This document shows, piece by piece, positions 41,564 through 59,736 of a stretch of 64,000 nucleotides of DNA. How positions within the stretch are numbered: the stretch's first letter is position 1; each line of letters starts with the position of its first letter. A program made the position numbers and the translations under genes. Below the pieces are notes generated by a model, which was given only the letters and a program-made list of their open reading frames with translations, ran no database searches and was not told the DNA's origin. The stretch lies in the NCBI GenBank assembly GCA_019635275.1, contig JAHBZV010000004.1, forward strand, positions 1 through 64,000. The letters are read 5' to 3'. The DNA comes from Burkholderiaceae bacterium (GTDB lineage Bacteria > Pseudomonadota > Gammaproteobacteria > Burkholderiales > Burkholderiaceae_E).

Positions 41564-41643
41564 GAGATGCCCCCCTTCGTCACTCTCTGGACGATTCGCT
41601 AGAGCGCCGCAACCGCATCGCCACTGATCGCTTCGACCTTGGC

Positions 41644-41777
41644 TCAGGTGATCGGCGCGTTCTTTTCGGCATCGATGACCTGTTCGACGGTTCGAACCGC
41701 AGAAACGACAGGGGCGTTCCTGCCCGGTCCCAGAACGCGACGCTTTCGGTTTGCATCTCGAACGCGGGCGCGATCAT
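41644..41777 (-). pseudogene. frameshifted small gene behind a SAM-II-like element
   Basis: Translation from the ATG at 41777 (MIAPAFEMQTESVAFWDRAG) looks protein-like for about 30 codons, then turns into Arg/Ser-rich noise. Switching frame near 41690-41720 gives a coherent tail VRTVEQVIDAEKNAPIT and a stop at 41644. This suggests one frameshift in a gene of roughly 44 codons. It has the same type of leader and an AGGAG site as metK, so it probably was a methionine-related or metK-companion gene. The product is not recognised. Confidence 0.4.
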
Positions 41778-41783
41778 TTGGCA

Positions 41784-41843
41784 CTCCTCTTTAGCCGATT
41801 GACCGGTTGGCAGGGGCCTTCAATCCGGATGAAGTTGCCCCGG
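41784..41843 (-). promoter_or_regulatory. SAM-II-like riboswitch, second copy
   Basis: Read on the minus strand, P1 is GGGGC/GCCCC (41837-41841 with 41813-41817). The P1 loop contains ATCCGGATTGA, which pairs as a pseudoknot with TCAATCGG just before GCTAAAGAGGAG. The same layout, with GCUAAA running into the ribosome site, defines SAM-II aptamers. It lies 24 bp after the metK stop and directly before the small frameshifted gene. It shares the blocks ATCCGGATTG and CGGCTAAA.AGGAGT with the metK copy. Confidence 0.65.
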
Positions 41844-41866: not shown

Positions 41867-43057
41867 CTAGGCATCGACGGGCTCACCAGACGAGCCATCG
41901 TCGGCAGCCCGCCGAACGCCTTCCCACGGCAGATCGAGGTCGTCCCGACCGAAATGGCCGTAGGCTGCCGTCGGATAGTAGATTGGCCGTTGGAGGTCGA
42001 GGCACTGGATGATCCCGGCCGGGGTCAGGACGAACTCCCGGCGCAGCGCATCGACGATCTCGGCACTGCGCGCTGAGGTGACGCCCTCGGCCTCAACCAT
42101 GAAGCTCACCGGCTCAGCCACCCCGATCGCATAGGCCAGCTGCACCAGCGCGCGCCTCGCCCAGCCCCGCGCCACGACCTGCCTGGCCAGGAACCGCGCC
42201 ATGTAAGCCGCCGAACGATCGACCTTCGACGGATCCTTCCCCGAGAAGGCGCCGCCTCCGTGAGGCGCGGCGCCGCCATAGGTGTCGACGATGATCTTCC
42301 GGCCCGTGAGCCCCGTGTCCCCCTTCGGGCCCCCGGTGACGAAGCGGCCGGTCGGGTTGATCAGCTCCCGATAGCCCGGCGCGCGCATCGACTTCGGGAT
42401 GACCGCTTCGACGATCTCGCGGCTCACTGCGTCGCGCACTTCGTCGGCGTCGGCGTCCGCCGCGTGCTGCGTCGACAGCACCACCGCCTCGACCGCGACG
42501 GGTCGCCCGTCCTCGTAGCGGAACGTCACCTGCGACTTGGCGTCCGGGCGCAGCCACGGATAGCGCCCCGACCGCCGCAGCTCCGCCTGCCGCCGCACGA
42601 GCCGGTGGGCGAAGACGATCGGCGCAGGCATCAACTCCGGCGTCTCGTCGCACGCGTAGCCGAACATCAGGCCCTGGTCGCCCGCCCCGATGACTCCGTC
42701 GACACGATCGACCCCGCGATTGATGTCCGCGGACTGGCCGTTGAATCGCACCTGGACTTCGCAGCGATCGGGATCGATGCCGGTGGCCGCATCGCGGTAG
42801 CCGGCGTCGCGCAGCACGCCCGCCACGATCGACACCGCGCGCTTGCGCACCTGCCGGAACACGTCGAGGTCGCGGGTCTTGAACTCGCCGGCGACGACGA
42901 CGCACTGGTCGGCGAGCAGCGTCTCACAGGCGACCCTCGCGCCGGGATCGAGCCCGAGGAACTCGTCCAGCACCGCGTCCGAGATGCGGTCGGCAAGCTT
43001 GTCAGGGTGGCCCTCGGAGACGGATTCCGAGGAAAAGAGGCCATTGCGAACAGACAT
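41867..43057 (-). CDS. metK: S-adenosylmethionine synthase
   Basis: Makes SAM from methionine and ATP. The 396-residue protein has FSSESVSEGHPDKLADRISD at the N-terminus, GAGDQGLMFGYACDETPELM, and the phosphate-binding GGGAFSGKDPSKVDRSAAY. INPTGRFVTGGPKGDTGLTG is also present. All are standard MetK signatures and the length is normal. The SD AGGAG is directly attached to a SAM-II-like aptamer, so translation should fall when SAM is high. The gene is embedded among unknown genes next to BREX rather than in a methionine-cycle operon, so it may be a second or acquired copy; this window cannot tell. Confidence 0.96.
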   Translation of the reverse strand: MSVRNGLFSSESVSEGHPDKLADRISDAVLDEFLGLDPGARVACETLLADQCVVVAGEFKTRDLDVFRQVRKRAVSIVAGVLRDAGYRDAATGIDPDRCEVQVRFNGQSADINRGVDRVDGVIGAGDQGLMFGYACDETPELMPAPIVFAHRLVRRQAELRRSGRYPWLRPDAKSQVTFRYEDGRPVAVEAVVLSTQHAADADADEVRDAVSREIVEAVIPKSMRAPGYRELINPTGRFVTGGPKGDTGLTGRKIIVDTYGGAAPHGGGAFSGKDPSKVDRSAAYMARFLARQVVARGWARRALVQLAYAIGVAEPVSFMVEAEGVTSARSAEIVDALRREFVLTPAGIIQCLDLQRPIYYPTAAYGHFGRDDLDLPWEGVRRAADDGSSGEPVDA

Positions 43058-43062
43058 CGGTC

Positions 43063-43124
43063 AACTCCTGTTTAGCCGCGTTCGACGATGCGTCGGGGGC
43101 GGCAATCCGGATCAAATCCCCCCA
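43063..43124 (-). promoter_or_regulatory. SAM-II-like riboswitch of metK
   Basis: Minus-strand RNA directly before metK. P1 forms between the G-run (43118-43123) and CCCCC (43095-43099), enclosing GATTTGATCCGGATTGCCG. This closely parallels the loop of the known SAM-II aptamer (GAUUUAACCGUAUUGC). A small CGACG-CAT-CGTCG hairpin follows, then the conserved 3' piece GGCTAAACAGGAG, which contains the metK ribosome site. Ligand binding should hide the SD. The pseudoknot pairing (CCGGAUU with AACGCGG) has two mismatches, so a covariance-model score is desirable. Confidence 0.75.
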
Positions 43125-43125
43125 G

Positions 43126-43157
43126 AAAACAAAAAGCCCTCCGCTTCACGGGAGGGC
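43126..43157 (-). terminator. intrinsic terminator inside the metK leader
   Basis: Minus-strand stem GCCCTCC / GGAGGGC (43151-43157 with 43136-43142), 8-nt loop, followed by TTTTTGTTTT. It stands immediately 5' of the SAM-II-like element, leaving no room for a promoter between them. Its 5' arm shares four bases (43154-43157) with the closing stem of the upstream structured RNA, so the two can compete. Confidence 0.85.
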
Positions 43158-43252
43158 CGACGCGATGCCCGCTTGGTTGCTCCCGCAGGAGCCACATCCG
43201 CTTTCGCGATCCACCTTGCCCGGGACAGGCAGGTTGGCATGGGCGTCGGCCC
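43154..43252 (-). promoter_or_regulatory. multi-hairpin structured RNA leader upstream of metK
   Basis: A closing stem of 10 bp (GGGCCGACGC with GCGTCGGCCC) plus 5 bp (ATGCC/GGCAT after a small internal loop) joins positions 43236-43252 and 43154-43170. Inside are three hairpins on the minus strand: CCTGCC/GGCAAGG with one bulge, CGC-GAAA-GCG with a GNRA tetraloop, and GCTCC-TGCG-GGAGC. This is a four-way-junction fold ending at a terminator, as in transcription-attenuating riboswitches. I cannot match it to a named family. It could alternatively be a terminated small RNA. Confidence 0.55.
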
Positions 43253-43468
43253 AACTCGGAATGCAGGGTGCATGCTAGCAGGAATGCGACGGCCAGTCAC
43301 CGCACCGACAGGCGACAAGTTCATGAAAGGCGATCTGGCCGTCTACCATTGATTGGACAGGTCGCATACCCTACCAATGGCTGTAAAGGCACAAATTCAA
43401 CAGTCAGTACAGGACGTCCAGATCAGTGCGTCCGGGCGGGTCGATGGTGGCCAACTCATGGAGTGAAC

Positions 43469-43828
43469 ATGGGCGCGCAGCGCTGTGACGAAGACGAGGA
43501 ACACAAGTGCCCCTTCTGCTCGAGCACAGGGCACTGCCCGCACATCTTGCTGCTAGTGGACACGACGTTCCGAAACGCCGAGGGTGGCGTCTTGATGAGC
43601 GCTTTCAACGAGCGTTGGAGCAAGCTCTGTCAAGAAGGCGGCGACGACTTCGACGAGCGCGAGCCGTTCGAGAGCCTTCTCGGAGAGGTCGACTCGATCG
43701 CTGATGTTGCTAACGACTACGACTATGAAGGGGGGCCCGGTATGTCGTCGACGTACTCCGCCTACTACGTCGACTCGGAAACGAAAGCGCAAGACGCCTT
43801 GGGGCGCTTCATCGAAGCAAGACGGTGA
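43469..43828 (+). CDS. hypothetical acidic protein with Cys/His motif
   Basis: A 119-residue protein, unrecognised. Near its N-terminus CPFCSSTGHCPH at about residues 13-24 could bind zinc. The remainder is strongly acidic (CQEGGDDFDEREPFESLLGE, ADVANDYDYEGG). A GGAGTG site precedes the ATG at 43469. It is the only plus-strand gene in this part, divergent from metK and convergent with brxA. Confidence 0.6.
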   Translation: MGAQRCDEDEEHKCPFCSSTGHCPHILLLVDTTFRNAEGGVLMSAFNERWSKLCQEGGDDFDEREPFESLLGEVDSIADVANDYDYEGGPGMSSTYSAYYVDSETKAQDALGRFIEARR

Positions 43829-43861: not shown

Positions 43862-44581
43862 CTAAGCCGATCTGAGACCAGCGAACTGCTGATTCGCCCC
43901 CTCCAACCGCAGTTCCAGCGTGTCACTGTTCGAAATGACGTAGGCCAGAGGCTGATCGAGCACGAAGGGGTAAAGCACGGCGGTTGACTGCAGTGTAGCG
44001 AGCGAAATGGGTCTTCCATGATATCTAAGCGCAGCCTCGATCAGCCAACCGACCATATGCGGGTCGTCCAGACGGCGTGCCGCCGTGCGGACCAGTCGCT
44101 TGCCCATCTCCACGCGTTCGATCGCTCCCCAATTGGCTTGGGTTTGCAGGACCGCTTGCGTCGCTCGCTTGGTCACCTGCCGATCGCCGTAGACCTCGCT
44201 CATCCTCCTATGGATTTCGGCTACCGAGCAGTCGCCCTGTATTGCGGTCAGGCGACCCGTGAACTCGGCCACCTTGCCAAAATAGGGATAGGCGGCGATC
44301 GCCGCCCCCCACGCGAACGGAGCGACGTCGGCTGACGACAATGGGATTGCGAAATGGCCGACACCGCGTCCGATGAAGTCCGCCAGATCTGATCTTGGCT
44401 CCATGGCCATGGCCTTCAACTTCGTGCGCGTCTTGGCCTTCGCCTCCGGCCCCAGGCCCGAGCTGTCGAGCAGTCCCTCCAACTCATCCAGATCGGCGCT
44501 CCCAATGCATACCCTCAGCGCCGCCGCCACCCACTCGATTTGGATGAATCGGTCGAAGCCAATCTGAGGGACTTTCGACAT
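43862..44581 (-). CDS. brxA: BREX-3 protein BrxA
   Basis: A 239-residue soluble protein at the end of the BREX operon, immediately after pglZ. This is the position of brxA in type 3 systems, and the QIGFDRFIQIEWVAAALR opening and size agree with the DUF1819/BrxA group. BrxA of other BREX types is a small DNA-binding protein needed for full defence. Translation may start at ATG 44581, or at TTG 44593, which overlaps the pglZ stop. Assignment rests partly on position. Confidence 0.75.
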   Translation of the reverse strand: MSKVPQIGFDRFIQIEWVAAALRVCIGSADLDELEGLLDSSGLGPEAKAKTRTKLKAMAMEPRSDLADFIGRGVGHFAIPLSSADVAPFAWGAAIAAYPYFGKVAEFTGRLTAIQGDCSVAEIHRRMSEVYGDRQVTKRATQAVLQTQANWGAIERVEMGKRLVRTAARRLDDPHMVGWLIEAALRYHGRPISLATLQSTAVLYPFVLDQPLAYVISNSDTLELRLEGANQQFAGLRSA

Positions 44582-44589
44582 CTTGGCGT

Positions 44590-46584
44590 TCAACTCGAGC
44601 GACTCACTTTCACGAACGGCACCAGCAGCTCCTCCACCGAGATGCCGCCATGAACGACGGCTTGCTCGGCATCGGGCATGAAGGCGCTTCGCCCCCCGGC
44701 GAACAGACTGAAGAAGTTCGTGGGCAGTCCAGCGACGTCAAGCCGGTAGCTGTTGGGGTTGGACGTAGCCGACTCTGCCGCCAAAACTTCGCTGCGATAA
44801 GTCCGCACCCGCTCGCCGCGCAGCTCTGCGGCGACGCCCTGCTTCGGACGTCCCTGCCCCACCGCCTCGACATTGCCGTGGTCGGCGGTGAGGTAGACGC
44901 GAAAGCCCTTGTCTGCCAGTTGATCGAGCAATCGCTCAACGAACCCCGACTCGCACCAGCTTTCGATCAAGGCGGCGACGCCGCGCTTGCCGAGCGGTGC
45001 ACCGTGAACGATCTCGTCGACCGTGTCAACCACGATCCCGACGACCTTCAGCACGGGACTACTCAACGCGCCATCGAGTTCAGCCAACTGGTCATTGCGC
45101 TTGATGCCCTTACGATACAGAACCTCGTTGGCTCGCAAGCCCTGGTCCTGCCAGAACCGGGACCATTGATTGGGCTCGGGCGCGGTTGACTCGATCGTGT
45201 CCGCGAACTCCCGGGGCTTGAGCCCCGAGAAGATCGCCTGGCGGGATACCGACGTCAGCGTCGGCAGCCACGCAAAGCAGGCAGATTCGTCGAATGCATA
45301 TCTCGGCGCACGCTTGGCCAGCGCTTCTCGAATCTGTACCCACTGATCGACAGCCAGCCCATCGAACACGAGCAGTGCGATCTTCTCCTCACCGGCCCCA
45401 CGCCGAATGGAGAGAAAGCGCGGGACGTGGTGGACCATGACCGGGCTCTTGGCGACAGGGAGCGACGGCAGATCGGCGTAGTGCTTGGCGGTCCACTGTC
45501 GCAAACGCTCGTCGGATGACGTCTGCAGCTCGACAATCGCCGCCCGCAGACCCTCGGCGCGCGTCGAGTCCAGGGAATGAAAGCGCGCCAGCACCTCGCC
45601 GAACCTCCGTGCGGTGCTGATCCAGTCGCGGTAGGACGAATCCACCGTGGGCAGTGCCCCTTGAAGTCCCTTGATGCCCTCTCCCACGAGGTTTCGCAGC
45701 GCCAAGGGATCCTGAACGATGCCGACCTTGGCCCACTCCGGGATCGTGGGCAGCGCGCCGTTCACGGCCAGCGGATGGAGCAGGCCGTCAAGGAACATCG
45801 AATCGACGATCACGCGCACGTCCGGGTGCTCGAAAGGCACGTCCGCCCTTGCTGCGAAGTCAGGCGCTGGCGGCTCACCCGTGCGTGTGCCCGTGACGCC
45901 GCGGTCCGACCAATAGCGGTACCAAGCCTCCTGCACCACACGAAGTAGCGTTGCCTTGGAGCAGAACAGCTCGCTCAGCGGCAGCGACTTGAATACCGCG
46001 CTGTCGCCAAGCACCTGCGCGACGTGCTCGCCCAACACCGGGGGAAGCGCGGCATCCCGGTAGTGCAGACGCAGCAACTCGCGCCATAGATCTTCAGGAC
46101 GCGAAATCAGGTGCGGGCTGATCCTGAAGAGGTGCGTAAGGATGAAGTCCTTGGTCAGCGATTCACCCAGGGCTTGCGACGCATGTTGCGTCTGCGCGGC
46201 ATAGAGTGCCTCGTGGTGTTCCGGCCCGATCTGACGAACGACGTTGTAGCTCAGCTTCGCAAACAGATTGGCGAGACTCAGGCTCACCTGCCGCGCCTGC
46301 CGCAAGTAGTCCCACGGCAGATCACCCACGTTCGTGCCGCGCAAGTGCAGGATCAGGGCCTTCGCCGGCCCGCTCTCTCCCGAGTCCCAGGCGGCCCGGT
46401 AGCGCTCTTCGTACTCGGCGCGGAACACGACCGAGTCCTCGAAGGGCAGCAGCTCGAAGCCGCGCTCGCGCAGACCAGCGAGAACGCGCTCGTCCAGCAG
46501 CACATCATCCGGGTCCGCCGCGATCCACAAGCGAGCCAGGTCCGCCGTGAACTCCTTGAGGATGCGGTCAATCCAGGCGCTCAT
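44590..46584 (-). CDS. pglZ: BREX-3 phosphatase-like protein PglZ
   Basis: A 664-residue PglZ-domain protein of the alkaline phosphatase superfamily, a defining component of all BREX systems. The C-terminal half holds the metal-binding elements LLVFDGLAVDQW and YLTADHGNVEA (Asp568, His569). The loop TLTSVSRQAIFSGLKP corresponds to the nucleophile region. The ATG at 46584 is 19 bp after the DUF262 gene. In characterised BREX, PglZ is essential for both host methylation and phage exclusion. Confidence 0.92.
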   Translation of the reverse strand: MSAWIDRILKEFTADLARLWIAADPDDVLLDERVLAGLRERGFELLPFEDSVVFRAEYEERYRAAWDSGESGPAKALILHLRGTNVGDLPWDYLRQARQVSLSLANLFAKLSYNVVRQIGPEHHEALYAAQTQHASQALGESLTKDFILTHLFRISPHLISRPEDLWRELLRLHYRDAALPPVLGEHVAQVLGDSAVFKSLPLSELFCSKATLLRVVQEAWYRYWSDRGVTGTRTGEPPAPDFAARADVPFEHPDVRVIVDSMFLDGLLHPLAVNGALPTIPEWAKVGIVQDPLALRNLVGEGIKGLQGALPTVDSSYRDWISTARRFGEVLARFHSLDSTRAEGLRAAIVELQTSSDERLRQWTAKHYADLPSLPVAKSPVMVHHVPRFLSIRRGAGEEKIALLVFDGLAVDQWVQIREALAKRAPRYAFDESACFAWLPTLTSVSRQAIFSGLKPREFADTIESTAPEPNQWSRFWQDQGLRANEVLYRKGIKRNDQLAELDGALSSPVLKVVGIVVDTVDEIVHGAPLGKRGVAALIESWCESGFVERLLDQLADKGFRVYLTADHGNVEAVGQGRPKQGVAAELRGERVRTYRSEVLAAESATSNPNSYRLDVAGLPTNFFSLFAGGRSAFMPDAEQAVVHGGISVEELLVPFVKVSRSS

Positions 46585-46603
46585 CGAACGCACTTGGCGA
46601 TGT

Positions 46604-48469
46604 TCATGCGGCAACCATTGCGGCTTGGGACTTGCTGGCCACGTGCAACGTCCATAAGGCATCCACCGTCGGGGAGTTCCCGTTGACCAGTGCCTCCATC
46701 GCAGACACCACCAACTGAGCGCGATCGCGCAAGAACTCGCTGAAGTCGTCTGAAAGCTTCTTCTTCAACGCCTCGCCATTGAGATCAGCGTAGTGCCCCT
46801 TCGACAGCAGCTCGAAGGAGATCAGATGGGACTTCAGCCGATCACTGACCGCGCTTGCGTCGGCCCACTGCACGCGCTCTTCCAGATAGTTCAGAGGATC
46901 CTTGCGACCGATCATCCTATTGGTTTTCCAGGTGATAAGTGCGCAGTTCAACGCGAGGTAGCTCTGAATGCCAGCCTCCTCGAGCAGCGCATCCGGAAAG
47001 ACGTGGTGGTACTCGCGCTTCTGAATGCTTTCGTAGGACGCTGCTTTGCCATCTGCGAAATCGATGGCGCCCAGGTAGGTGGTCACGGCCAGGACTGCCC
47101 GGGCCTCGATCCCGGCAGCCTTGGGCCACCCGGCGGCCATGAGGGAGTCAACGTCAGCCAGGGGGAAGTCGGTACGATTCAGCACTGGCACGGTCGACAA
47201 GTCGCCGTCGACGAAGCTCGGTTTCTCCAGCAGAGCCTTCAGGGCTTTGAAGTCAGCGAAGGCGCGCGAAGGTGCGGTGTTCTCGTATCGGTCCGTAAAA
47301 AACGCCGACCACAGGTAGCGCCGCAACAACTTCTCCGCCTTGGCGAGAAAGTCGCCGTGGTCCGGTATCAAATCGTACGCGGCAGCGATGACCGGCAATA
47401 CGGCATTTGTCGGCAGTCGAGCATCATCGAAGACACCTTGTGCGGCCAGGAAAGCGGCCATGCGCTCCAGTCCACGCTCCAGCTTGGGCCAGTTCTCAAG
47501 CAGTCGCTTCTTGTCCATCTCCACCATGCCACGCGTGTTTGGGAGCTTGTCCTGCAACAACGCAGACGTGGAGAGGATGAGATCGGAAAGCTGGCCGTAT
47601 CTCCTAGCCGTAGGGCACTTGTCGATCAAGCTGGCTTCCAGCGCGTGAAGCGACTTCTCTGCGACGCTCTCGACTTCGGCGACGATGATGTCGTATAGCG
47701 ACAGCGGTTTGCTGTTGGTGTTCATGTTGATGAACACCTGCAAGGCCACGTCCTTGGTCGTGTCCGCTGGCAAAGACAAATAGGGCAGATTGAAGTAGGC
47801 CACGCGCTCGCGGAGCGTCGTGATTTCAGCCTTGATCTTGTCGCGCGTTGCCGTGTACGCCTTGTACTTGGCAAGTGCGTCCGACTCGCTGTCCACCGGC
47901 TCCAACGGCTTGGTGGCCTCATTCAACCATCCATCAATTTCGGTCGAGATGTCCCCGGGCCGGAGCAGGTTGACGGGCAACAAACCGCGCCTCAGGCACT
48001 GTGCCGAATCGTCCGCCCAGCGAGGCATCCGTAGCTGGTGTTTGTTCACCCAGCGTGGGATACAGCGGACCTCGACATCGCCAGACTTGTTTTCGTTCTC
48101 GCTCCGATCGAACTGCGGTAGATATATAAAGAAGGTCTCCCACTCGTAGTTGTTGTGCATCGCGCGCCAGAATGCTGTAAGGCGCTGCTGGCCGTCGAGC
48201 AGGTGTTGCGTGACGGTTCCGGACTTGGCGGGATCGGATGTGGCGATGTAACGGGACTCGAACTTCTCGGGCCCCGCCACTTCAAGCGCGAGAGTCACGC
48301 CGACTGGCAAGTTGTTGATGATCGTATTGAGAAAACTCGTGATTCGGCCACGGTCCCAAGCCTCGAGGCGCTGGAAGCGTGGGAGCTTGACCATCCCCTG
48401 CTGGATGTTCTGAAACCAGACGCCCAAGGCACGGTCCTGTGCCTTGCTGGACTGCTGCATGACGCTCAT
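46604..48469 (-). CDS. DUF262 and HNH (DUF1524-like) nuclease, GmrSD-type
   Basis: A 621-residue protein inserted in the BREX operon. The N-terminal DUF262 (GmrS-like ParB-fold nucleotidase) carries LPRFQRLEAWDRGRI and the signature HLLDGQQRLTAFW (Asp92-Arg96). The C-terminal part has REYHHVFPDALLEE (His488-His489) and CALITWKTNRMIG, matching a DUF1524 HNH endonuclease. Such proteins are type IV restriction enzymes that cut modified phage DNA. BREX plus a GmrSD enzyme (BrxU) is known to give complementary defence. It lies 50 bp after brxHII and 19 bp before pglZ. Confidence 0.88.
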   Translation of the reverse strand: MSVMQQSSKAQDRALGVWFQNIQQGMVKLPRFQRLEAWDRGRITSFLNTIINNLPVGVTLALEVAGPEKFESRYIATSDPAKSGTVTQHLLDGQQRLTAFWRAMHNNYEWETFFIYLPQFDRSENENKSGDVEVRCIPRWVNKHQLRMPRWADDSAQCLRRGLLPVNLLRPGDISTEIDGWLNEATKPLEPVDSESDALAKYKAYTATRDKIKAEITTLRERVAYFNLPYLSLPADTTKDVALQVFINMNTNSKPLSLYDIIVAEVESVAEKSLHALEASLIDKCPTARRYGQLSDLILSTSALLQDKLPNTRGMVEMDKKRLLENWPKLERGLERMAAFLAAQGVFDDARLPTNAVLPVIAAAYDLIPDHGDFLAKAEKLLRRYLWSAFFTDRYENTAPSRAFADFKALKALLEKPSFVDGDLSTVPVLNRTDFPLADVDSLMAAGWPKAAGIEARAVLAVTTYLGAIDFADGKAASYESIQKREYHHVFPDALLEEAGIQSYLALNCALITWKTNRMIGRKDPLNYLEERVQWADASAVSDRLKSHLISFELLSKGHYADLNGEALKKKLSDDFSEFLRDRAQLVVSAMEALVNGNSPTVDALWTLHVASKSQAAMVAA

Positions 48470-48519
48470 TTGTCTGCTCCGCTCTTTCTTCTGTTCGCTG
48501 TTTGCCCTGCATCGCTTCT

Positions 48520-51348
48520 CTAAGTAGGCCGAGGTAAAGCATCGCTCGAACCGACCCGGAGCATCAGCACCGCATTGAGGTCCGGGATGCTGGCCTCGGC
48601 ATCGTCCAGCGCCGCCATTCGCACCTGGTGCTCAGCGTCCAGCCGCTTGCGCCGATGCTCGCGCACTTGCGGCAAGCCAATCCGCCCGATCGCCTGATGG
48701 CGCGCATCGTATGCGTAGCGGGCGCGCTCGCGCTCGTCCTTCAACCGGGCGCGATGCTCTTCCAGCAGGCTGTCAAACAGCCGCTCCCCCTGGGTTTTGG
48801 CTGCGGCTATCGAAGCATCGAACCAGCTAGTGGAATCCTCGCTGCTGCTCTTGCCATGGATCTCGACTGCTTCCGTAAGCAGCAGATCCCAGATGCGCTT
48901 GGCGGTCGGAACAAAGGTTCGCCCATCGTCCGTGGCGAATGCCGGCAAGAAGCGCTTGAGGTTGAACCCGGGCGCCGAAAGGCTGATCTCCCACAGGGAC
49001 CACACGCCCTGGATCCCGTCGGGCAGGCCGCCCACTTTGACGCAGGGCAGCGGTTGCCCGGCCACCCAGCGAGGCAGTTCACTAATGACCGCCCTCGCGC
49101 GCGGGTCTTCTAGCGTCACCCACTCGAGTTCAGGGTTCTGCTCGGCCGTGCGCGCGTCAAAGCACACCCTGGGCGACTCGCTGCCATCCGCCCAGCGCAC
49201 GCGCCAAGCGTCACCGCTCTTCACTGCCGAGCCGCCCCGGGCCGGCAGGCCCGTGGTGATCGCGCGCTCGAGCCAGAACTGCGCGGGATGGTCACGCCAC
49301 TTGCGGGCGTCGTCGGGCTTCAGGGGGTGCGCATCGGCAAGCAGGTCGCTGTTCTTGCGCGCCTCCGCCACCTTGTCGCGCACCTGGTGGATCGCGGCGT
49401 CGCATTCCTTCTCGATGGAAGCCGGGTCCTGCAGCCCGTGTACGAACAGCTCGTCGAAGATCGGCTCGGCTTCCACCGAATCCATCACGTCGGACGCCTT
49501 GTCGACACCGAACTCTTCGGCGATGACGGCCAGCTTCTCTTCGAGCACCTGGCGGACGCGGTGCTCGACGGTGTCTTCGAGCACGAAGTTGATGGCGCGC
49601 ACTACGTGCTTCTGCCCGATGCGATCCACGCGGCCGATGCGCTGCTCCAGGCGCATCGGGTTCCATGGCATGTCGAAGTTGACCACGACATGGCAGAACT
49701 GCAGGTTCAGGCCTTCGCCCCCGGCGTCAGTGGAGATCAGCACCCGTTTCTCGCCCGCGAACGCCTGTTGCGCCCTTGTGCGGGCATCGAGATCCATGCC
49801 GCCATTCAGCAGCGCCACCGAGAAGCCACGGCTTTCCAGGAACCCCGCCAGCATCACCTGCGTCGGCACGAACTCGGTGAAGATCAGCACCTTGAGCACC
49901 GGATCGTTCTCGTCCTGCTGCAACTTGTAGATCAGCTCCAGCAGTGCTTCGGCCTTGGCGTCGGTGCCCTGCGCTTCAGTCTCGCGCGCCAGGTTCAGCA
50001 GCAGGTCAACTTCCGCCTTCTCCTGCGCCCACCCTGCGGTCTGGACGGCGATGTCCACCTGACTCTGACCGTCCAGTTCCGCCCATTCGTCCGTCTCGGC
50101 AAGATCGAACAGGTTGGCCTGGGGCTGTGGCGAGTCGAGCAGTGCCTGCCGTTTCTCCAGCGTGGTGCGAATCGCTGCGGTACTCGAAGTCACGAGCCGC
50201 TGCATCAGGATCATCAGGAACCCGATGTGACGCTGTTTAGCCGCGAGCGCCTGGTTGTAGCCGTGACGCACGTAGTCGGTCACAGCCTCGTACAGGCGCT
50301 GCTGCGCGACATGCCTGTCTTGCCAGGCGACCGCGTGTAGGCGGGGCACGCGCGGCTTGAAGAGCGGGCGGCCCTCGGCGTCGATCGCGACACGCTTCTC
50401 GGTGCGGATGACGAAGGGCCGCACGCGCTCCTGCGTGACGCTGCCTTCGTCGGGAAACGAGTCCCGGTCGATGAGCTGCATCAGGCGCAGGAACTGATCC
50501 GTCTTGCCCTGGTGCGGCGTCGCCGACAGCAGCAACACATAGGGCGCCGCCTCGGCCAGCGCGGCACCCAGCTTGTACCGGGCCACTTGCTCGGTGCTGC
50601 CGCCCATGCGGTGAGACTCGTCGATGATGACCAGATCCCACGACGCCGAGACCAGGTCCTCGAAGCGCTCGCGGTTGTAGTTCGCCAGCTGCTCCAGGCT
50701 CCAACCCCGCCGCCCTTCGATCGGCTTGACCGAGTCCAGCGAGCAGATCACCTGGTCATGCAGCCGCCAGAGATTCTCCTCATCGTTGCGCCACTGCCGG
50801 AAGGCGGCCAGCTCGGCCGGGTCGATGTGTTGGAGCTTCTCGCCGAAGTGCAGGCGCATCTCGGCCTGCCACTGGCGGACCAGCCCCTTGGGGGCCACCA
50901 CCAGGATCCGGCGCGCCATGCCGCGAAGCTTCAGCTCGCGCAGGATCAGCCCGGCCTCGATCGTCTTGCCCAGCCCCACTTCGTCGGCCAGCAGGTAGCG
51001 AATGCGGTGCTGGCTCATCGCGCGGTTCAGCGCGTAGAGCTGGTGCGGCAGCGGGACGACACTAGACTGAATTGGCGCAAGGAGCAGGTTGTCCTCCAGC
51101 GCGTCGAGCAGCTTGGCCGCTGCGGCGGCATGCAGCACGGTGTTGGCGGACGGTTCGACGCGTTCGAGCGCCATCAGCTCCGTCGCCCGGGCTCGCACCA
51201 CCGCATCCTTGGCCGGCAGCCACACCCGGTAGACGTCCTCGCCCCACATGTCCTGCCGGTCGACGACACGGCACGGCGCGGACTGGCGCTGGTGCCAGCA
51301 CCAGGTGCCGATCTGATGACCGTCCTGCACGGCTCGCGCCTCGGCCAT
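48520..51348 (-). CDS. brxHII: BREX-3 SNF2/helicase-like protein BrxHII
   Basis: A 942-residue superfamily 2 helicase. Walker A is DEVGLGKTIEAGLILRELK (from residue 122), motif II is LVIIDESHRMGG, motif III LLSATPHQGKTDQF. The C-terminal RecA-like lobe contains KVLIFTEFVPTQVMLAGFL, LISTDAGGEGLNLQFC and RLEQRIGRVDRIGQK. The protein starts inside the pglXI stop codon (ATGA). Type 3 BREX carries this helicase between pglXI and pglZ, exactly as here. Confidence 0.93.
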   Translation of the reverse strand: MAEARAVQDGHQIGTWCWHQRQSAPCRVVDRQDMWGEDVYRVWLPAKDAVVRARATELMALERVEPSANTVLHAAAAAKLLDALEDNLLLAPIQSSVVPLPHQLYALNRAMSQHRIRYLLADEVGLGKTIEAGLILRELKLRGMARRILVVAPKGLVRQWQAEMRLHFGEKLQHIDPAELAAFRQWRNDEENLWRLHDQVICSLDSVKPIEGRRGWSLEQLANYNRERFEDLVSASWDLVIIDESHRMGGSTEQVARYKLGAALAEAAPYVLLLSATPHQGKTDQFLRLMQLIDRDSFPDEGSVTQERVRPFVIRTEKRVAIDAEGRPLFKPRVPRLHAVAWQDRHVAQQRLYEAVTDYVRHGYNQALAAKQRHIGFLMILMQRLVTSSTAAIRTTLEKRQALLDSPQPQANLFDLAETDEWAELDGQSQVDIAVQTAGWAQEKAEVDLLLNLARETEAQGTDAKAEALLELIYKLQQDENDPVLKVLIFTEFVPTQVMLAGFLESRGFSVALLNGGMDLDARTRAQQAFAGEKRVLISTDAGGEGLNLQFCHVVVNFDMPWNPMRLEQRIGRVDRIGQKHVVRAINFVLEDTVEHRVRQVLEEKLAVIAEEFGVDKASDVMDSVEAEPIFDELFVHGLQDPASIEKECDAAIHQVRDKVAEARKNSDLLADAHPLKPDDARKWRDHPAQFWLERAITTGLPARGGSAVKSGDAWRVRWADGSESPRVCFDARTAEQNPELEWVTLEDPRARAVISELPRWVAGQPLPCVKVGGLPDGIQGVWSLWEISLSAPGFNLKRFLPAFATDDGRTFVPTAKRIWDLLLTEAVEIHGKSSSEDSTSWFDASIAAAKTQGERLFDSLLEEHRARLKDERERARYAYDARHQAIGRIGLPQVREHRRKRLDAEHQVRMAALDDAEASIPDLNAVLMLRVGSSDALPRPT

Positions 51349-54137
51349 CAGGCGCTCGCCTCCGCGCGGGTCAACGCTTGGTCATACCAGAGGAGCAGCT
51401 TCTCGTCTTCCTGCAGCGCCTCTTCGGGGATCTTTAGCGCGACCTTGATGATGGTTGCGTAGTCCTTGCGGCCCCAGGCCGCCTTGAAGCCTGCGCGGAG
51501 CACCTCGAGTCGGAACTCCTTGAGCTTGCGGCCCGTGGCACCGGCGTACACATCGAACTCTCTTAGCAGCGCCTTTTCGCGCTTCTTCTCCAGGTCTTGC
51601 GCCTTGTTCGGGTCGGGCACGTACCACCGGTCCTGCGCCTTCGCCTTCAGTCGCGGATCCGCCTTGTCCAGGCTCCGCAGCTCCTTGAAGTTGGTCGACA
51701 GGTAGCTGTGGATCTGGCTCGGCACATCGCTCGCCCCGTCGTACTTCAGGAAATTGTTCTCAAGCAACGCAGACAGCTCCGGCTTGGCCTCATGCTTCTT
51801 CCAGCCGGCACCAAGCTGCGTGATGAACTCGGGGTGAATCTCCTGGTAGGTCGAGGGACGCGCCTTGAGGAAATCGACCAGCCAGTCGATCGCGCTGCGC
51901 TCGTCGCTGACGAACAGCTCCATCTGCGGCGCCTGGGTTACCTGCGCGCGCTTCTTGTCGTAGATCGTCACCTGTTCAGGCAGGAACACCATGCCGTCGC
52001 GCTCTGCGAAACGAATTCGCAAGCCGCTGAGAAACTCGTCGCTTGACAGCGGGACGGCTGCATCGTGGCGAACGAACCACGCCACCATGCGATCGAAGAT
52101 TCGTCGTGGCTCTCTCTCGACGACAAACTCCAGTTCACTGGCCTTTAGCTTGACGACGGGAAGCTGCCGCAAGTGAGTCTGAACAAAGTCCCACGCGGAC
52201 TCGGGTACAGCTCCCCGCTCAACAAATCTCTGCTCAAGTCCGCCGTTCGGCTTGTAGGCTGATATGACCAAGTCCTGCTTAACGGTATTTGGCGAAATAC
52301 CCTGTTGAAAGCTTCCTTGCCGCTTGTCGAGAGCATTCACCTCCGCGACCACGAAGCCGGCCTGCTGAAGTGCAACCTGAATCGCGTTCCAGACGGACGC
52401 CCGGCTGTTTGAGAAGACAACGGTCATCCAGCGGCCTGGCTTCAAGACGCGGAAATACTCAGAGAAGCAACGATGCATGAGGCGCTGATACTCTGGGACC
52501 GCCTTTCGGCGAACACGATCAACGATCGCCTCGGCTCTTGCATCTGTTGTTACGCCATGCCAAGTCTCGACCATGAAATTGAGGTCCGCGTAGTAGATGT
52601 TCTCGCCAAAAGGAGGATCGGTGAAAACGTAGTCAACCGAAGAGTCCGAAAGTGCAGAGCCGCTCGCGCTTCCCGTCGATACCATCACAGCTTGCGCGGC
52701 ACCATGAAACGAGGAAAACGTCTTCGTTAGGCGATCAAGTTTTCCCTCAAACTGCGTTGAGACGCTAACCTCGGAAATAAGCGAGGGCACATAGAAGACC
52801 CCTGGCAAGTCGAGCCCAACCTGAGATCCACCGAGGCGACCGTGCTGGATCGGCTTATATCGATTAAGCACGGACATCCCTCGGATGCCTTGCTCAACAA
52901 AGTACATGAGCATGTGTCGCAAGCGGCGATCCGGAATACGCTTGACACGATCCCACAACGTGCCCATCGCTTGCGCCGCTCTTGGCAAAAACATCGAATG
53001 AATGGTCGATGTGTTAGTAGTCCGCATCCGACCTACCCGCGACATTTGGGAGTCCGGCAGCGAATCCCGTGGCAGTTCCTCAGGAATGGGTAATCGTGAG
53101 ATGCGGTCTAGTATCTCTAGGTCAAAGGCATCCGGCTTCTTCACAAACTTCTGCTTTCCGATCCGGTACTGAATCCAAACGGGAGTTCGTTTTGGTCTCT
53201 TTACAACGAGATTAGTTGCCGAATCGACGAAGCTCTCAAAGCGAAGATCCATCTGTTCCTTATTCCCTTCCGCCCCGCAATGCGGACATGGGAAGACGTC
53301 GGCGACTTCCTGCGTAACATCGTCGACTGCAGCCTCGGCAAAGATGAACTCCCCCAAGCAAGATCGACACGTAAGCGACTCGCTCCAAACCGTGTACTCG
53401 ATTCGCGCTTTGGTTCGGCCGTCCGTGTGGAGGGTCTCGTACATCCAACCGAGATCCTTTTCCACCGACTTGAGCAACTCCTTTCCCGCCTCGGAAAACG
53501 CTTCGACGTCGAAAGGCAAGTTGTAGTTGGCCGCTATGAAGGAAGCTGCCGGCGACAGGTCATTGAGCACAACTCGCCGTGGCCCCCACTGGGGCACAGC
53601 GCGACCTTCCTTCTTCCATGCCATCTCGAGTTCGTGTCGGTAGGCGGTCGGTGCGCTGCCGCACCACTGCCCCGCCACGCCCGTCATACCGGAACCGGCA
53701 AAACCGTCCAGCACGATATCCCCCGGCCTTGTGTAATGAAGGATGGAGGGGACGATTGCGAGATGAGGTACCTTAGTGTGATACGCGTGGGCCCTGTAGA
53801 TGGGATCGGTCTTGCCGACGGAGACGTCAATGGCCAGCGGCTCGCGGGTGTACTTCTCTTGCGCGTCATAGGGCTTGCCGTAATGCTTGGCGAAGTCGCT
53901 CAGCCACGGATTCGGGCACGCGGTGTAGTACGGCGGATCGGACATGGCCAGAATGGCTTCGTCGGTGCCATTGGGAAAGCCGTCCTGCCTTCGGAATGCG
54001 GGATCCTTGAGCTTCTCAGCCAGCAGCTTCAGGAAGTGCTCACGCCGCGCCTGCTCGCTCGGGAACTTCTGCCCCAGACATTCGACCGGCCCTGAGGCTG
54101 CGGCGCCACCTAGGTTCAGGGATTGGGTACCACTCAT
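51348..54137 (-). CDS. pglXI: BREX-3 adenine-specific DNA methyltransferase PglXI
   Basis: A 929-residue DNA methyltransferase that should mark host DNA. Catalytic motif IV DPPYYT is at 67-72, followed by the SAM-binding IVLDGFAGSGMTGVAGQW (141-158), the order of beta-class amino methyltransferases. A second DPPFGENIYYADL occurs at about 507-519. The middle contains CxxC pairs (LTCRSCLG, FPCPHCGA) suggesting a zinc ribbon in the target-recognition part. The ATG at 54137 overlaps the stop of the AlbA_2 gene (ATGA). Confidence 0.92.
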   Translation of the reverse strand: MSGTQSLNLGGAAASGPVECLGQKFPSEQARREHFLKLLAEKLKDPAFRRQDGFPNGTDEAILAMSDPPYYTACPNPWLSDFAKHYGKPYDAQEKYTREPLAIDVSVGKTDPIYRAHAYHTKVPHLAIVPSILHYTRPGDIVLDGFAGSGMTGVAGQWCGSAPTAYRHELEMAWKKEGRAVPQWGPRRVVLNDLSPAASFIAANYNLPFDVEAFSEAGKELLKSVEKDLGWMYETLHTDGRTKARIEYTVWSESLTCRSCLGEFIFAEAAVDDVTQEVADVFPCPHCGAEGNKEQMDLRFESFVDSATNLVVKRPKRTPVWIQYRIGKQKFVKKPDAFDLEILDRISRLPIPEELPRDSLPDSQMSRVGRMRTTNTSTIHSMFLPRAAQAMGTLWDRVKRIPDRRLRHMLMYFVEQGIRGMSVLNRYKPIQHGRLGGSQVGLDLPGVFYVPSLISEVSVSTQFEGKLDRLTKTFSSFHGAAQAVMVSTGSASGSALSDSSVDYVFTDPPFGENIYYADLNFMVETWHGVTTDARAEAIVDRVRRKAVPEYQRLMHRCFSEYFRVLKPGRWMTVVFSNSRASVWNAIQVALQQAGFVVAEVNALDKRQGSFQQGISPNTVKQDLVISAYKPNGGLEQRFVERGAVPESAWDFVQTHLRQLPVVKLKASELEFVVEREPRRIFDRMVAWFVRHDAAVPLSSDEFLSGLRIRFAERDGMVFLPEQVTIYDKKRAQVTQAPQMELFVSDERSAIDWLVDFLKARPSTYQEIHPEFITQLGAGWKKHEAKPELSALLENNFLKYDGASDVPSQIHSYLSTNFKELRSLDKADPRLKAKAQDRWYVPDPNKAQDLEKKREKALLREFDVYAGATGRKLKEFRLEVLRAGFKAAWGRKDYATIIKVALKIPEEALQEDEKLLLWYDQALTRAEASA

Positions 54138-56008
54138 GGTTGTTCTTCCGTATGGCTTGCGGCCTGTTGTTCGCGCCAGAGCTTGAGCTGGACGCCGGCT
54201 TCTGTGAGGACGTAGCGCTGGTTGGGCGAAGTGGGCTTGTCGGGTTTGGTCATGCGCACGATCCCGCCAGCGAGTAGGGGCTCCAGATGCTGCCGTTTGA
54301 AGTGGGCGCGCTGCCTGTGGCCGGTATGCGCGGTCAACTCGAGGATGGTGCGCGGCACGTCGACGAGGCCGACGATCTGCCACTGAATGGCGGTCAACTG
54401 TACAAGTGACTGCACAAGCTTCTCCTGCCCAACGCCAGCTTGTGCAGCGGCTTGTGCAGTGCTCTGCTCGGCGCCGCCGGACGTCAGCGCCTCACCGCTA
54501 CCCGATTGATTTCCTTGCGAATATTCCGTTTTCTCAACCGGAAACCGGGCACGCAGATGCTCGGCCAGAACGAATACGTTGCCGGCCTCGCCCTGCGCCA
54601 CTAGAAGGGCTTGTACGGTGAGCCGCTGGACCAGCTGGCGTGCGTCGGCGCCGGAAAAACCGGTCAACGCCTTCACATCGGTCAAGTCGATCCGGCCCTT
54701 GCGGGTCAGGTAGGCGAAGACATCGGCCTCCTCCTCGCTCAGATGGGCGCCCAGTTGGGCCTGGGCCAGCAACTGGGCCTCGGTGATGAGCTTCTCTCTT
54801 CGAAGGCGCAGGCGAAAGCTCTTTTCGGCCTTGTGGTTTTCGATCTCCGGCGGAACGAAGCCCAGCTTGCGCCAGCCGTCGAAAATCGCGCGCACGCCGG
54901 TGCCGCCTTGGTCGGACAGGCCGATGCGGCGGAAGGCGTTGACGATGCTCGGGTTGCGCACTTCCTTGTCGCCAGGGTCAAGCAGTTGCTCACGCGAGGC
55001 GAAGGCGTCTCCGGGGTTGAAAAACTCGGTCTGGTCGCGAAAGAAGCGGATCACCGGTACCCGAGTGGTATCGCCGAAATCCTGGTGGATGAGCAGGTTG
55101 ATGGCCGCTTCGCGGAAAGAGATGTAGTCCGGCGGGTCGTCATCGCGGCGCAGGGTGGTGGCGTCGACGGCAAAAGGCCGCTCACTGTGACGGAAGTAAA
55201 AGTCGACGACAGCCTGCCAAGCCTTGATGAGGTTGTCCTCGACGGTCAGGCGGTCGGCCCAGCGCACGGCGGAGTCGTACTGGGCACTGGTGTGGCGGTA
55301 GAGCTGCACGTCTGCCACCATGCGCGGCAGCACCTGACGGACATACTCACCGCTCCCCAGAACCAGAATGGCCGCACGCGTGGGGCGCAGCACGCCACCT
55401 TGCTCGACGAGAAAGCCCCAACTTCGCAGGAACGCGGTGTCATCGGCGGCGGTGTCCTTGCCGGGGTTGCTGGACGCGAAGCGTGCGCGATACCAGCGCA
55501 CAGACTCTTCGTCGAAGCAGCGGGAGATGTCTACTTCCAGTGGCTCGGCGTCGTAGCGAACGGCCGCAGCGTCGCGCATGAAGCGCAGCAGCTCGTCACC
55601 CGTGCAGGTGTCGTCGCGTCCGCCGCGGCGGACGTGCGCCTTCTTAGGGTTGCCGTCGAGGTAGACAGGCTTCTGTTGCCGTGCGGCTTCGGGGATGTAG
55701 AACGCGAGCACCGTGCCTTCGGGGAGATTGTGCACCGTGCCGTCGATAGGAAGGAACACACTGATCTTGTTGATGTCCCGAACCTGGCCGAGAAACGTGT
55801 TCTGCACTTGGTCGGCATCCGTGACGCCGGTGATTATGAACAAGCCCTTGGCCTGCTTCACGCCGAACACCAAGTGCCCGCCCGCCGTGTTGGCGAAGGC
55901 GCTAACGGTTGAGAGTGCACTCTTGGGGACTTCCCAAGATGCCTCCTTGAACTCGATGTCGTTCCATTCGATGGACTCGAGACGCTGTAGCAGTTCGTCA
56001 CGAGTCAT
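54134..56008 (-). CDS. AlbA_2 / HATPase-like protein embedded in BREX
   Basis: A 624-residue protein. Residues about 15-130 form an AlbA_2 (Schlafen-type) domain with WNDIEFKEASWEVPKSALST and AFANTAGGHLVFGV. Residues about 260-400 resemble the HATPase_c_4 module of RecG-like ATP-binding regulators (ISFREAAINLLIHQDFG, FFNPGDAF, GLSDQGGTGVRAIFDGW). The C-terminus has one or two winged-helix segments (RTILELTAHTGHRQRAHFKR). It starts 2 nt after brxC and its stop overlaps pglXI, so it is fully coupled to the BREX operon. It is not a core type 3 component; a regulatory or accessory defence role is inferred. Confidence 0.85.
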   Translation of the reverse strand: MTRDELLQRLESIEWNDIEFKEASWEVPKSALSTVSAFANTAGGHLVFGVKQAKGLFIITGVTDADQVQNTFLGQVRDINKISVFLPIDGTVHNLPEGTVLAFYIPEAARQQKPVYLDGNPKKAHVRRGGRDDTCTGDELLRFMRDAAAVRYDAEPLEVDISRCFDEESVRWYRARFASSNPGKDTAADDTAFLRSWGFLVEQGGVLRPTRAAILVLGSGEYVRQVLPRMVADVQLYRHTSAQYDSAVRWADRLTVEDNLIKAWQAVVDFYFRHSERPFAVDATTLRRDDDPPDYISFREAAINLLIHQDFGDTTRVPVIRFFRDQTEFFNPGDAFASREQLLDPGDKEVRNPSIVNAFRRIGLSDQGGTGVRAIFDGWRKLGFVPPEIENHKAEKSFRLRLRREKLITEAQLLAQAQLGAHLSEEEADVFAYLTRKGRIDLTDVKALTGFSGADARQLVQRLTVQALLVAQGEAGNVFVLAEHLRARFPVEKTEYSQGNQSGSGEALTSGGAEQSTAQAAAQAGVGQEKLVQSLVQLTAIQWQIVGLVDVPRTILELTAHTGHRQRAHFKRQHLEPLLAGGIVRMTKPDKPTSPNQRYVLTEAGVQLKLWREQQAASHTEEQP

Positions 56009-56010
56009 GC

Positions 56011-59000: not shown

Positions 59001-59736
59001 CGAGCAGCACTTCGGCGAAGCGCTCCTTCACACGACGCAGGCTGTCGGCGACGTGCTGAAAGCGACCGCTGTCGAAGATCGCTTCCTGAACGCCAGCCAA
59101 GAAGCGGAAGCGCAGGTGCTTGGCGACTTCGCCGATTTCGCGGAGGAAGGACAGATCGAGGACCAGGTCGTGGTCCCTGCGCGAGCGCAGGTACTCGAGG
59201 AACTCGTCGACCACGAGCAGCACGCCATGGTTGGGGTGCACCTCGGCGAAGGCGGCCATCATCTCCTCGAAGGCCGCCTTGTTGTTGACCACCTTGTCAG
59301 CGGGCGGGAACGTGTAGCTGACGCCGTTCTTCTCCAGGAACAACTCGAGCTGCTGCGTGACGATGTCCCGCAGCGACATCTGGCTGGAGATCTCGATGCG
59401 GTGAACCTTGAACTTGCCCGCGATCGCCGCTGCTGCTTCGGCCACCTTGCGGTGGCGAATCATCGACTGGTACGCCGCGTCCTCCGCCACGAGCGAAATC
59501 ACGGACATCAGGTGCGACTTGCCGGTGCCGTAGTTGCCGACGACCAGCAGGCCCTTGTGGTCGACTGACTCGTCGAAAGAAAGCTGGGGGATCATGAGCT
59601 TGGCGATGCGCTCGGCCATGTCGTCAGAGATGACGTACGTGGCGACGAGCTTCTTCGCTTCGGCGGGCCGGTTCGCATCGAGCAACTGGATGACCGATTC
59701 GATCGGTTCGAATTGGATGAGATCGCTGTAGCGCAT
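56011..59736 (-). CDS. brxC: BREX-3 large ATPase BrxC (DUF6079-like)
   Basis: A 1241-residue AAA-type ATPase. Walker A is GNYGTGKSHLM (67-77) and Walker B GVLLVVDEFLEYL (about 170). A sensor-like region and a long helical C-terminal part follow, with a CPHC motif (SPYCPHCNFRPANEQ) around residue 1100. BrxC/PglY ATPases are universal BREX components needed for defence. The second gene of the operon, as in known type 3 loci. An AGGGGA ribosome site precedes the ATG. Confidence 0.93.
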   Translation of the reverse strand: MRYSDLIQFEPIESVIQLLDANRPAEAKKLVATYVISDDMAERIAKLMIPQLSFDESVDHKGLLVVGNYGTGKSHLMSVISLVAEDAAYQSMIRHRKVAEAAAAIAGKFKVHRIEISSQMSLRDIVTQQLELFLEKNGVSYTFPPADKVVNNKAAFEEMMAAFAEVHPNHGVLLVVDEFLEYLRSRRDHDLVLDLSFLREIGEVAKHLRFRFLAGVQEAIFDSGRFQHVADSLRRVKERFAEVLLARQDVSFVVAERLLKKTADQQNRIRTYLTKFAKFYSSMNERMDEYVRLFPVHPEYIGTFERLVFTEKRGALVTLRDQIQAILNTDVPEDRPGLISYDKFWETVTSNSVLRSDPSIGPVLKVSEVLTERVQKVFSRPTYKAMALRVISGLSVHRLTTGGDIYVPVGPTAAELRDTLSLYQPGIEDMGGDPADDLLTAVQTTLREIVKTVNGQFISKAPDTEQYYLDLKKDVDYDSQIEKRAEALSDDALDRAYFGAIKQLMERTDESTYVTGHQIWQYPIEWQEHRVDRNGYLFFGAPNDRPTAQPERDFYIYFIQPFEPPRFRDESKADEVFLRLKGLDDAIKRYLSFYAAAQDLASTASGGAKGIYLDKAKDALRDMSKWLQEKQMTAYEVTYQGKTKTLQEWTKGVSIRDKLRLGADERANFRDIVNVISGLALKQHFADIAPEYPVFSVLVTETNRRQLVGSALKALAGGTRTKDANAMLDALEMLDGDRIDLGRSRYAQDILKRLKAKGHGQVLNRSELLSGPTDVEYFHPVKFRLEPDLLVAVLGGLVYAGDIVLAITGDKIDSGKITQLAERSLDELKQFKHVEAPKEINVAVLRSLFELLGLSPGLAQLATQGSEEPVKQLLDAVSKLVGRVLIAGTDLHGKLSFWGKPLLTDDEIRDWRTRLEALKTFTEGLTPYNTVGKLKNLRIGSDDIDAQKKNLDVLASVEKLLELVGELGATAGYLSQAELVLAGDHPWVKQAQSARKDILEKLATDRSAKHAAEYRQALAQLKRDYLTAYIAQHSKARLGVAEDKTKAALRKDSRLVAMRALAGISLMPTSQLTAFDDKLDKLKSCASLVESELAASPYCPHCNFRPANEQGDFLPAANVIKQLDDELDRLLDGWQQTLLDNLDDPIIRSNFDLLKASARELIKKFVASKKLPDPVPPDFVSAVQEALSGLEKIGVTSEDIKNALLQGGSPATPDDLRKRFEAFLNDRCKGKDASKLRFVVE

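Follow-up and report, generated by a model that had tools for sequence, protein, structure and literature searches.

Tandem SAM-I/IV and SAM-II-like elements ahead of metK in a Burkholderiaceae genome: a predicted two-level switch with a single ligand

The leader of a metK gene in a Burkholderiaceae bacterium carries two riboswitch-like elements in tandem: a SAM-I/IV aptamer with an intrinsic terminator, and a SAM-II-like pseudoknot placed on the metK Shine–Dalgarno (SD) sequence. We read this leader as a two-level, single-ligand SAM-OFF switch, the tandem having probably come from loss of a DUF3293 gene, and we give this reading a probability of about 0.8. Positions are those of the window, i.e. 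the whole stretch of 64,000 nucleotides analysed (positions 1–64,000 of contig JAHBZV010000004.1, assembly GCA_019635275.1).

RESULTS

The metK locus

The source genome is a MAG of 3,689,055 bases in 162 contigs (completeness 86.8%). The order toward metK, all on the minus strand, is SAM-I/IV aptamer, intrinsic terminator, SAM-II-like pseudoknot (W1), SD, metK. The genes concerned are:

41867..43057, minus strand: metK, coding for SAM synthetase, the genome's second copy (Pfam PF00438, PF02772, PF02773)
43862–59736, minus strand: BREX cluster (BrxA, PglZ, a GmrSD-type protein, BrxHI, PglX, BrxC)

The metK frame is open and 396 aa long, and its product matches each of the three SAM synthetase domains of Pfam. 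The other metK of the genome, on contig C68 (locus L086), is 57% identical to it and gave no match at E ≤ 1 with either of our two models, R2 and R1, described below. One SAM-II element of the genome scores above the Rfam cut-off; it lies ahead of a metX-like ORF (L001, 43.2 bits; the names metX and metZ were assigned by eye to neighbour genes that were not scanned). The BREX cluster is situated ∼0.6 kb upstream of the SAM-I/IV aptamer, on the same strand as metK.

The first element: aptamer, antiterminator and terminator

The features of the first element are:

43163..43269, minus strand: SAM-I/IV riboswitch aptamer (RF01725; cmscan 53.0 bits, gathering score 41.1, model positions 1–99 of 99)
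43243..43252, minus strand: antiterminator 5′ strand, bases also used by the aptamer P2 hairpin (complement in 11 of 14 leaders)
43154..43163, minus strand: antiterminator 3′ strand, with a 4 nt overlap with the terminator 5′ arm
43131..43158, minus strand: intrinsic terminator, stem 43158–43135 followed by a U tail

An earlier note, made from the letters alone, had described a terminator-bearing structured leader followed by a SAM-II-like pseudoknot on the metK SD, and this description held (RF01725, 53 bits; R1, 78.4 bits). The same note had called the first RNA unknown, and that label has to be given up: the RF01725 match covers the full model, exceeds the gathering score and has E 7.3e-06 over the whole window. 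By this match the first RNA is a member of a catalogued class, the SAM-I/IV riboswitches, and SAM binding is predicted for it. The note had overlooked this as well as a weaker SAM-II-like copy just after metK.

The terminator is the sole terminator-like site in 43050–43480 (1 found; mean of 0.4 in shuffled sequences). Upstream of it a 10-bp stem, GGGCCGACGC/GCGTCGGCCC at 43252–43243/43163–43154, and a 5-bp stem, ATGCC/GGCAT at 43240–43236/43169–43165 (both minus strand), are present in the minimum-free-energy fold of 43275–43126. Fold energies, with the ligand not counted, were −70.7 kcal/mol with the 10+5 bp helix and −63.6 kcal/mol with aptamer P2 plus terminator. The stem had been proposed as the closing stem of a sensor; it does exist in the most stable fold, but it competes with aptamer P2 and with the terminator. 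It is best read as an antiterminator, because its first strand also serves aptamer P2 and its second enters the terminator 5′ arm by four bases (43157–43154, an overlap that the note had correctly pointed out). The expression platform is thus mutually exclusive with the aptamer fold, the competing helix taking the P2 bases and overlapping the terminator arm. The overlap between antiterminator and terminator is only four bases, which counts against the switch model.

In 14 SAM-I/IV-type leaders, 13 of which have RF01725 above cut-off, we looked for a perfect complement to the P2 region in the sequence downstream of the aptamer; the set comprised L003, L004, L005, L087, L105, L109, L245–L251 and the window. 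Such a complement, 9 to 15 bases long, was found in 11 leaders; in L004, L250 and L251 there was none of more than 6 bases (the best complement in L251, 7 bases, belongs to another part of the leader and not to P2). Three leaders being devoid of it, the P2-strand platform is not general to the SAM-I/IV class. Among the 11 leaders with the helix is L249, where a scan of the record gave no RF01725 match. Alignment of these 11 shows pairing in 109 of 110 cells, with one helix pair missing in L249; one strand of L246 is longer by three bases. Changes on both sides are seen in three pairs. Slid versions of the helix pair in at most 57.3% of cells. The covariation score was reached by none of 500 shuffles and the number of two-sided pairs by 5 of 500, while the count of pair types was reached by all shuffles. 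A preceding count on six leaders had given 60 of 60 cells paired.

The second element: a SAM-II-type pseudoknot on the SD

The second element consists of:

43061..43125, minus strand: W1, pseudoknot of SAM-II type located at the ribosome-binding site of metK (model R1)
43065..43069, minus strand: metK SD, AGGAG, with GGA facing UCC of the W1 loop (putative pairing)

W1 has GGCTAAACAGGAG on the SD, and metK starts at 43057. Model R1 excludes the window sequence; it was built from five elements, two of them in L087 and one each in L005, L006 and L105. On the window it gave W1 78.4 bits (E 8.5e-21) and a second element, W2, 43.9 bits (E 6.8e-11), the next match having 8.3 bits; the tool itself calls the E-values of both R1 and R2 rough. 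The Rfam models gave W1 scores below their cut-offs: 12.5 bits, for a partial match, with SAM-II (RF00521, gathering score 36) and 18.6 bits with SAM-V (RF01826, gathering score 41). W1 thus scores somewhat better with SAM-V than with RF00521, both at E 0.35 or worse. An assignment to SAM-V was rejected on this score; in the source genome SAM-V had no match at E ≤ 0.001, in a search where controls were silent too. Elements of W1 type in relatives also stay below the RF00521 gathering score of 36 (L005, 17.0 bits; L006, 18.9 bits). The significant SAM-II match that the earlier note had proposed to look for is therefore not obtained from Rfam, but it is obtained from a model of relatives.

R1 run on 28 other loci produced 12 matches at E ≤ 1. 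It matches L198 (36.1 bits) and L204 (25.3 bits), both accepted by RF00521, and gives 36.5 bits to L197, which RF00521 leaves just below its cut-off at 35.5. The accepted SAM-II of the source genome (L001) gets only 13.3 bits from R1 (E 0.11), and R1 finds none of the 15 metK leaders of Burkholderiales type among the 28 loci. Although Rfam leaves W1 unreported, model R1 makes it a relative of SAM-II.

The element has the H-type pseudoknot, P1 plus P2, with GAUUU, UUGC and GCUAAA (pairs were counted on 6 and on 8 sequences). Over 8 sequences of W1-type elements 98.9% of cells pair. The third pair of P2 is C-G in 5, G-C in 2 and U-A in 1. L3 contains a hairpin of three pairs, the middle one being A-U in 5, C-G in 2 and G-C in 1. 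The covariation score was reached by 0 of 500 shuffles, the number of two-sided pairs by 144 of 500. The fifth P1 pair fails in L005. Pairing of loop UCC with SD GGA is possible in the six sequences counted, with one pair being U-G in L006. SAM-contacting bases of SAM-II are reported as U10, U11, A20, U21, U22, U46, A47 and A49 (PMC11508383, the portion available); we would place them in the GAUUU, AUUGC and GCUAAA segments, which W1 retains.

The diverged copy after metK

Two further features follow metK:

41780..41843, minus strand: W2, diverged SAM-II-like element just after metK (model R1)
41583..41777, minus strand: ORF of 65 codons downstream of W2, without a Pfam match, perhaps what is left of a gene

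W2 has kept P1, CUAAA and an SD; ACUUC has replaced GAUUU, and P2 is impossible in the usual register. It was not accepted as a full SAM-II on these two grounds, and we characterize it as a case of decay or of changed use. A 9-bp inverted repeat (41853–41845/41836–41828) competes with its P1. A third, weak SAM-II-like element is found at W2's place after metK in Gallionella (L006, 3570–3657; R1 12.6 bits, E 0.17).

One transcript and the proposed mechanism

A scan of 43050–43480 restricted to the sigma-70 consensus found 0 promoters (0.2 expected), so that neither a promoter between terminator and pseudoknot nor one upstream of the leader was recognised within that interval by that consensus; the missing upstream promoter is a point against the switch model. 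Only 7 nt separate the five-U run (ending at 43131) from the first stem of the pseudoknot (43123). With no promoter found and so short a distance, the natural reading is that both elements are on one transcript, as the earlier note had also argued.

Computation gave the class of each element, the terminator, the competing helix with its conservation across leaders, the pseudoknot covariation and the gene context; from these we infer that SAM binds, that each step is an OFF switch and that a gene was lost. As the first element matches SAM-I/IV and the second is a SAM-II relative, both inputs are most likely one ligand, SAM. When SAM is scarce, the P2 strand (43252–43243) would pair with GCGUCGGCCC (43163–43154) just upstream of the terminator; paired as an antiterminator, it would let the polymerase read into metK, and the downstream pseudoknot would be open with the SD free. 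When SAM is plentiful, the SAM-I/IV aptamer would be held in its bound fold, P2 would form and the terminator 5′ arm would be freed, so that most transcripts would end near 43131. In transcripts that escape, the SAM-II pseudoknot would bind SAM and tie loop UCC to SD GGA, thus blocking translation. The anatomy of a bi-mechanism tandem is present (two switch-like elements, the first with a terminator, the second on the SD); the mechanism is a prediction. Of the two-step switch drawn in the earlier note, the tandem arrangement survives, and the unknown first input gives way to SAM.

Relatives and the DUF3293 cassette

The closest metK proteins come from an IMG/VR contig (L087, 76%), a betaproteobacterial MAG (L005, 75%), a Gallionella MAG (L006, 65%) and a gammaproteobacterium (L008, 64%). 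In four relatives (a MAG, two IMG/VR contigs and a plasmid) the order is SAM-I/IV, DUF3293 gene, W1-type element, next gene. The cassettes, and the putative trace of one in the window, are:

L005 2342–3000; L087 3344–4000; L105 2120–2790; L245 2990–3680: SAM-I/IV + DUF3293 + SAM-II-type cassette
43124..43132, minus strand: putative remnant start of a lost DUF3293 gene, TTGTTTTCT (same letters, same place as the DUF3293 start of Paraburkholderia L248)

RF01725 scores 55.9 bits in L005 and 67.2 bits in L087; both continue with DUF3293 and, after it, a W1-type element that sits on the SD of metK. It scores 61.1 bits in L105 (IMG/VR) and 62.9 bits in L245 (plasmid pPNAP04 of Polaromonas naphthalenivorans CJ2), where a gene other than metK comes after the W1-type element. 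L109 and the Paraburkholderia megaplasmid loci L246–L249 have a SAM-I/IV-type leader, a terminator and a DUF3293-like ORF; among these the Pfam match to DUF3293 was run for L247 only, the others being assigned by similarity. The DUF3293 start is a TTG at the end of the terminator U run, annotated in L245 and L247 and read by eye in L105, L109, L246, L248 and L249. The hairpin of L087 is without a U tract; it seems to cover the SD instead.

The window has TTGTTTTCTG where L248 starts DUF3293 with the same ten letters, and then enters W1 directly. As relatives have DUF3293 between the switches and the window keeps only its first letters, comparison of the sequences suggests that the window's tandem probably arose by deletion of the DUF3293 gene between them. 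Our literature search returned no paper on a riboswitch together with DUF3293.

Some relatives have other arrangements. Ahead of metK, L006 carries first a SAM-II-like element (R2, 38.2 bits), next a hairpin that by eye resembles a terminator, and last a W1-type element; a similar pair precedes a 302-codon ORF in L196. Of three SAM-II-like elements in L008, two lie upstream of metK and one lies past the ORF that comes next. L251 is the second SAM-I/IV of pPNAP04; its annotated neighbours are transposase genes, and it lacks the P2-strand helix.

Several observations were made at the flanks of these loci. L087 has a second W1-type element (6076–6147) before another ORF, single genes there having their own SAM-II-type switch. 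An ORF with Pfam HD_4 (67 to 84 bits) occurs near cassettes in L006 (4283–4828), L008 (4186–4770) and L105 (3542–4117). In L005 metK is followed by an ORF for an Sf6-type terminase small subunit (4311–4832, 101.7 bits), a hint of a phage or prophage context.

A covarying SAM-II-like leader before Burkholderiales metK

A SAM-II-like pseudoknot was found upstream of metK in 52 of 80 metK loci, mostly Burkholderiales by record title (the source of all taxon groupings of metK loci).

L009–L081 (GTDB metK loci), within ∼205 nt upstream of metK: SAM-II-like metK leader (model R2)

R2, built from 22 of the 80 loci, matched at E ≤ 1 upstream of metK in 54 (partially in L041, L043 and L069); the figure of 52 leaves out L006 and L008, and 30 of the 52 are outside the R2 model set. 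The model sequences have GAGUUA, replacing GAUUU(A), together with UUGC, GCUAAA, P1 and P2. Over the 22 sequences 98.2% of cells are paired, and changes on both sides are seen in five pairs; the covariation score was reached by 0 of 500 shuffles, the number of two-sided pairs by 29 of 500. A previous pattern-based tally covered 49 unique elements, SAM-II included: of 98 cells for the two outer pairs of P2, 91 were paired, against no more than 86 in shuffles.

Rfam gave no SAM family at E ≤ 10 in L009, the sole locus scanned permissively, and no SAM-II at gathering in nine loci with the GAGUUA leader. R2 also matches accepted SAM-II elements (L001, 36.7 bits; L198, 24.9 bits), so the R2 leader belongs to the SAM-II superfamily. 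The GAGUUA leader is, as judged from these alignments, a candidate metK regulator of Burkholderiales; we found no description of it in the literature searched, and one may exist in papers beyond that search.

Distribution

RF01725 was found in 3 of 369 sampled genomes of the window's class (stricter filters), and by ORF inspection metK lies behind the element in only one of the three, the window's own genome. A wide spread of the tandem in this class was rejected on the count of 3 in 369. The view that SAM-II is established mainly in alphaproteobacteria, put forward in the earlier note, does not agree with the window's class: RF00521 matched at E ≤ 0.001 in 118 of the 369 genomes, and above cut-off in 31 of them. 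Several SAM-II-type matches occur as close pairs ∼100 nt apart (genomes G208, G084, G118, G331, G260, G148, G247 and G360), and SAM-II doublets look common in the class.

In viral contigs, pattern GGGGATTTGATYCRGMTTGC hit 10 stretches, two of them W1-type elements; the other eight, alike one another and with no GCTAAA in the stretch printed, were discarded. Five stretches matched the SAM-I/IV core pattern; two of them, L108 and L110, are in coding sequence and seem fortuitous. One scan for viral metK relatives gave 11 loci, all searched by motif patterns and eight scanned with Rfam at gathering, with switches only in L087; in a second scan, among the best 80 of 593, six leaders viewed by eye had no switch. 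By blastn the window leader matched no phage and 10 plasmid records, of which six were fetched.

DISCUSSION

Alternative readings

Could metK integrate two signals, the first RNA sensing some other ligand and having the 10+5 bp helix as its closing stem? The stem is present in the most stable fold of the leader; however, it excludes aptamer P2 and overlaps the terminator arm as antiterminators do, with compensating pair changes in relatives, and the RNA itself matches RF01725 over the full model. We rejected an unknown ligand on the RF01725 match and the compensatory antiterminator pairs, and consider such a sensor extremely improbable. Separate transcripts, with metK having its own start after the terminator, can hardly be expected either: in relatives a gene stands between the elements and an internal start is conceivable there, but the window has just the 7-nt interval, and the sigma-70 scan of 43050–43480 found no promoter-like site.

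A less remote reading, though an unlikely one, is that W1 is an RNA of SAM-II fold that senses SAM poorly, or senses SAH or another compound, so that only the first switch is live. Its low Rfam scores (12.5 and 18.6 bits with SAM-II and SAM-V) and the hairpin in L3 would agree with this; against it, W1 keeps GAUUU, AUUGC and GCUAAA, where by our placement the SAM-contact bases of the available PMC11508383 text would fall, and both its P2 and the L3 hairpin covary. We are similarly doubtful of a reading in which the cassette is decaying, the leader is what remains of it and the extra metK has no meaningful regulation. DUF3293 is gone, W2 is poor and the 65-codon ORF behind it has no Pfam match, yet metK itself and the parts of its leader (two aptamers, antiterminator, terminator) are intact.

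Besides the two-level SAM-OFF switch itself, one may consider the role of the gene. The BREX neighbourhood, together with a report that SAM depletion by phage T3 SAM lyase leads to loss of BREX defence (PMC11842806, available text), allows the reading that metK is a back-up against SAM depletion on a defence island: two independent SAM-OFF switches would silence it until SAM collapses, e.g. by a phage SAM lyase, and SAM would then be refilled for the adjacent BREX methyltransferase PglX. This reading rests on one locus, and none of the 10 ORFs scanned from the flanks of L005, L006, L008 and L087 was BrxA, PglZ, PglX or BrxC; we regard it as improbable.

Comparison with known systems

The earlier note expected two classes on one gene in this order to be rare and notable. 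Rare the type is; it is also known, as the text available of PMC9481103 lists two examples of SAM-I/IV followed by SAM-II, designated ‘Bi-mechanism’ in its Table 1. They have the same two classes in the same order as the window; that text leaves their loci unnamed, so that identity with the window cannot be judged from it. In the window, by comparison, the second element is below the Rfam threshold and a putative trace of the lost gene is visible. The same text gives seven tandems of inverse order, SAM-II then SAM-I/IV, said to be possibly purely pseudo-cooperative, as well as 44 SAM-II doublets and 149 SAM-II/SAM-V tandems.

The SAM-II/SAM-V tandem (PMC9481103 and PMC11508383, as far as available) resembles the window in that its first element ends in a terminator, its second acts on the ribosome-binding site and one ligand serves both, as predicted here; it differs in having SAM-II first and SAM-V second. 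In doublet SAM-II leaders (the 44 of PMC9481103; L006, L008 and L196 here) a SAM-II element is followed by a second one before one gene, whereas the first element of the window is SAM-I/IV. With respect to SAM-I/IV as described in the accessible part of PMC2864571, the first element matches the full RF01725 model above its gathering score, while the P2-strand antiterminator was worked out here and is absent in 3 of 14 leaders. W1 has in common with SAM-II (RF00521) the H-type pseudoknot with GAUUU, UUGC and GCUAAA, the SD following GCUAAA in W1; it differs by a P2 of four pairs, by the covarying L3 hairpin and by having no match at the RF00521 threshold.

Implications

The window contributes a well-resolved example of a tandem type that is rare, and for one branch of SAM-I/IV leaders a covariation-supported antiterminator is now supplied. 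The Rfam SAM-II model seems to miss two branches, the SD-type elements of mobile cassettes and the covarying metK leader in many Burkholderiales. Finally, the locus suggests that tandem switches can arise from two single operon switches joined by loss of the intervening gene.
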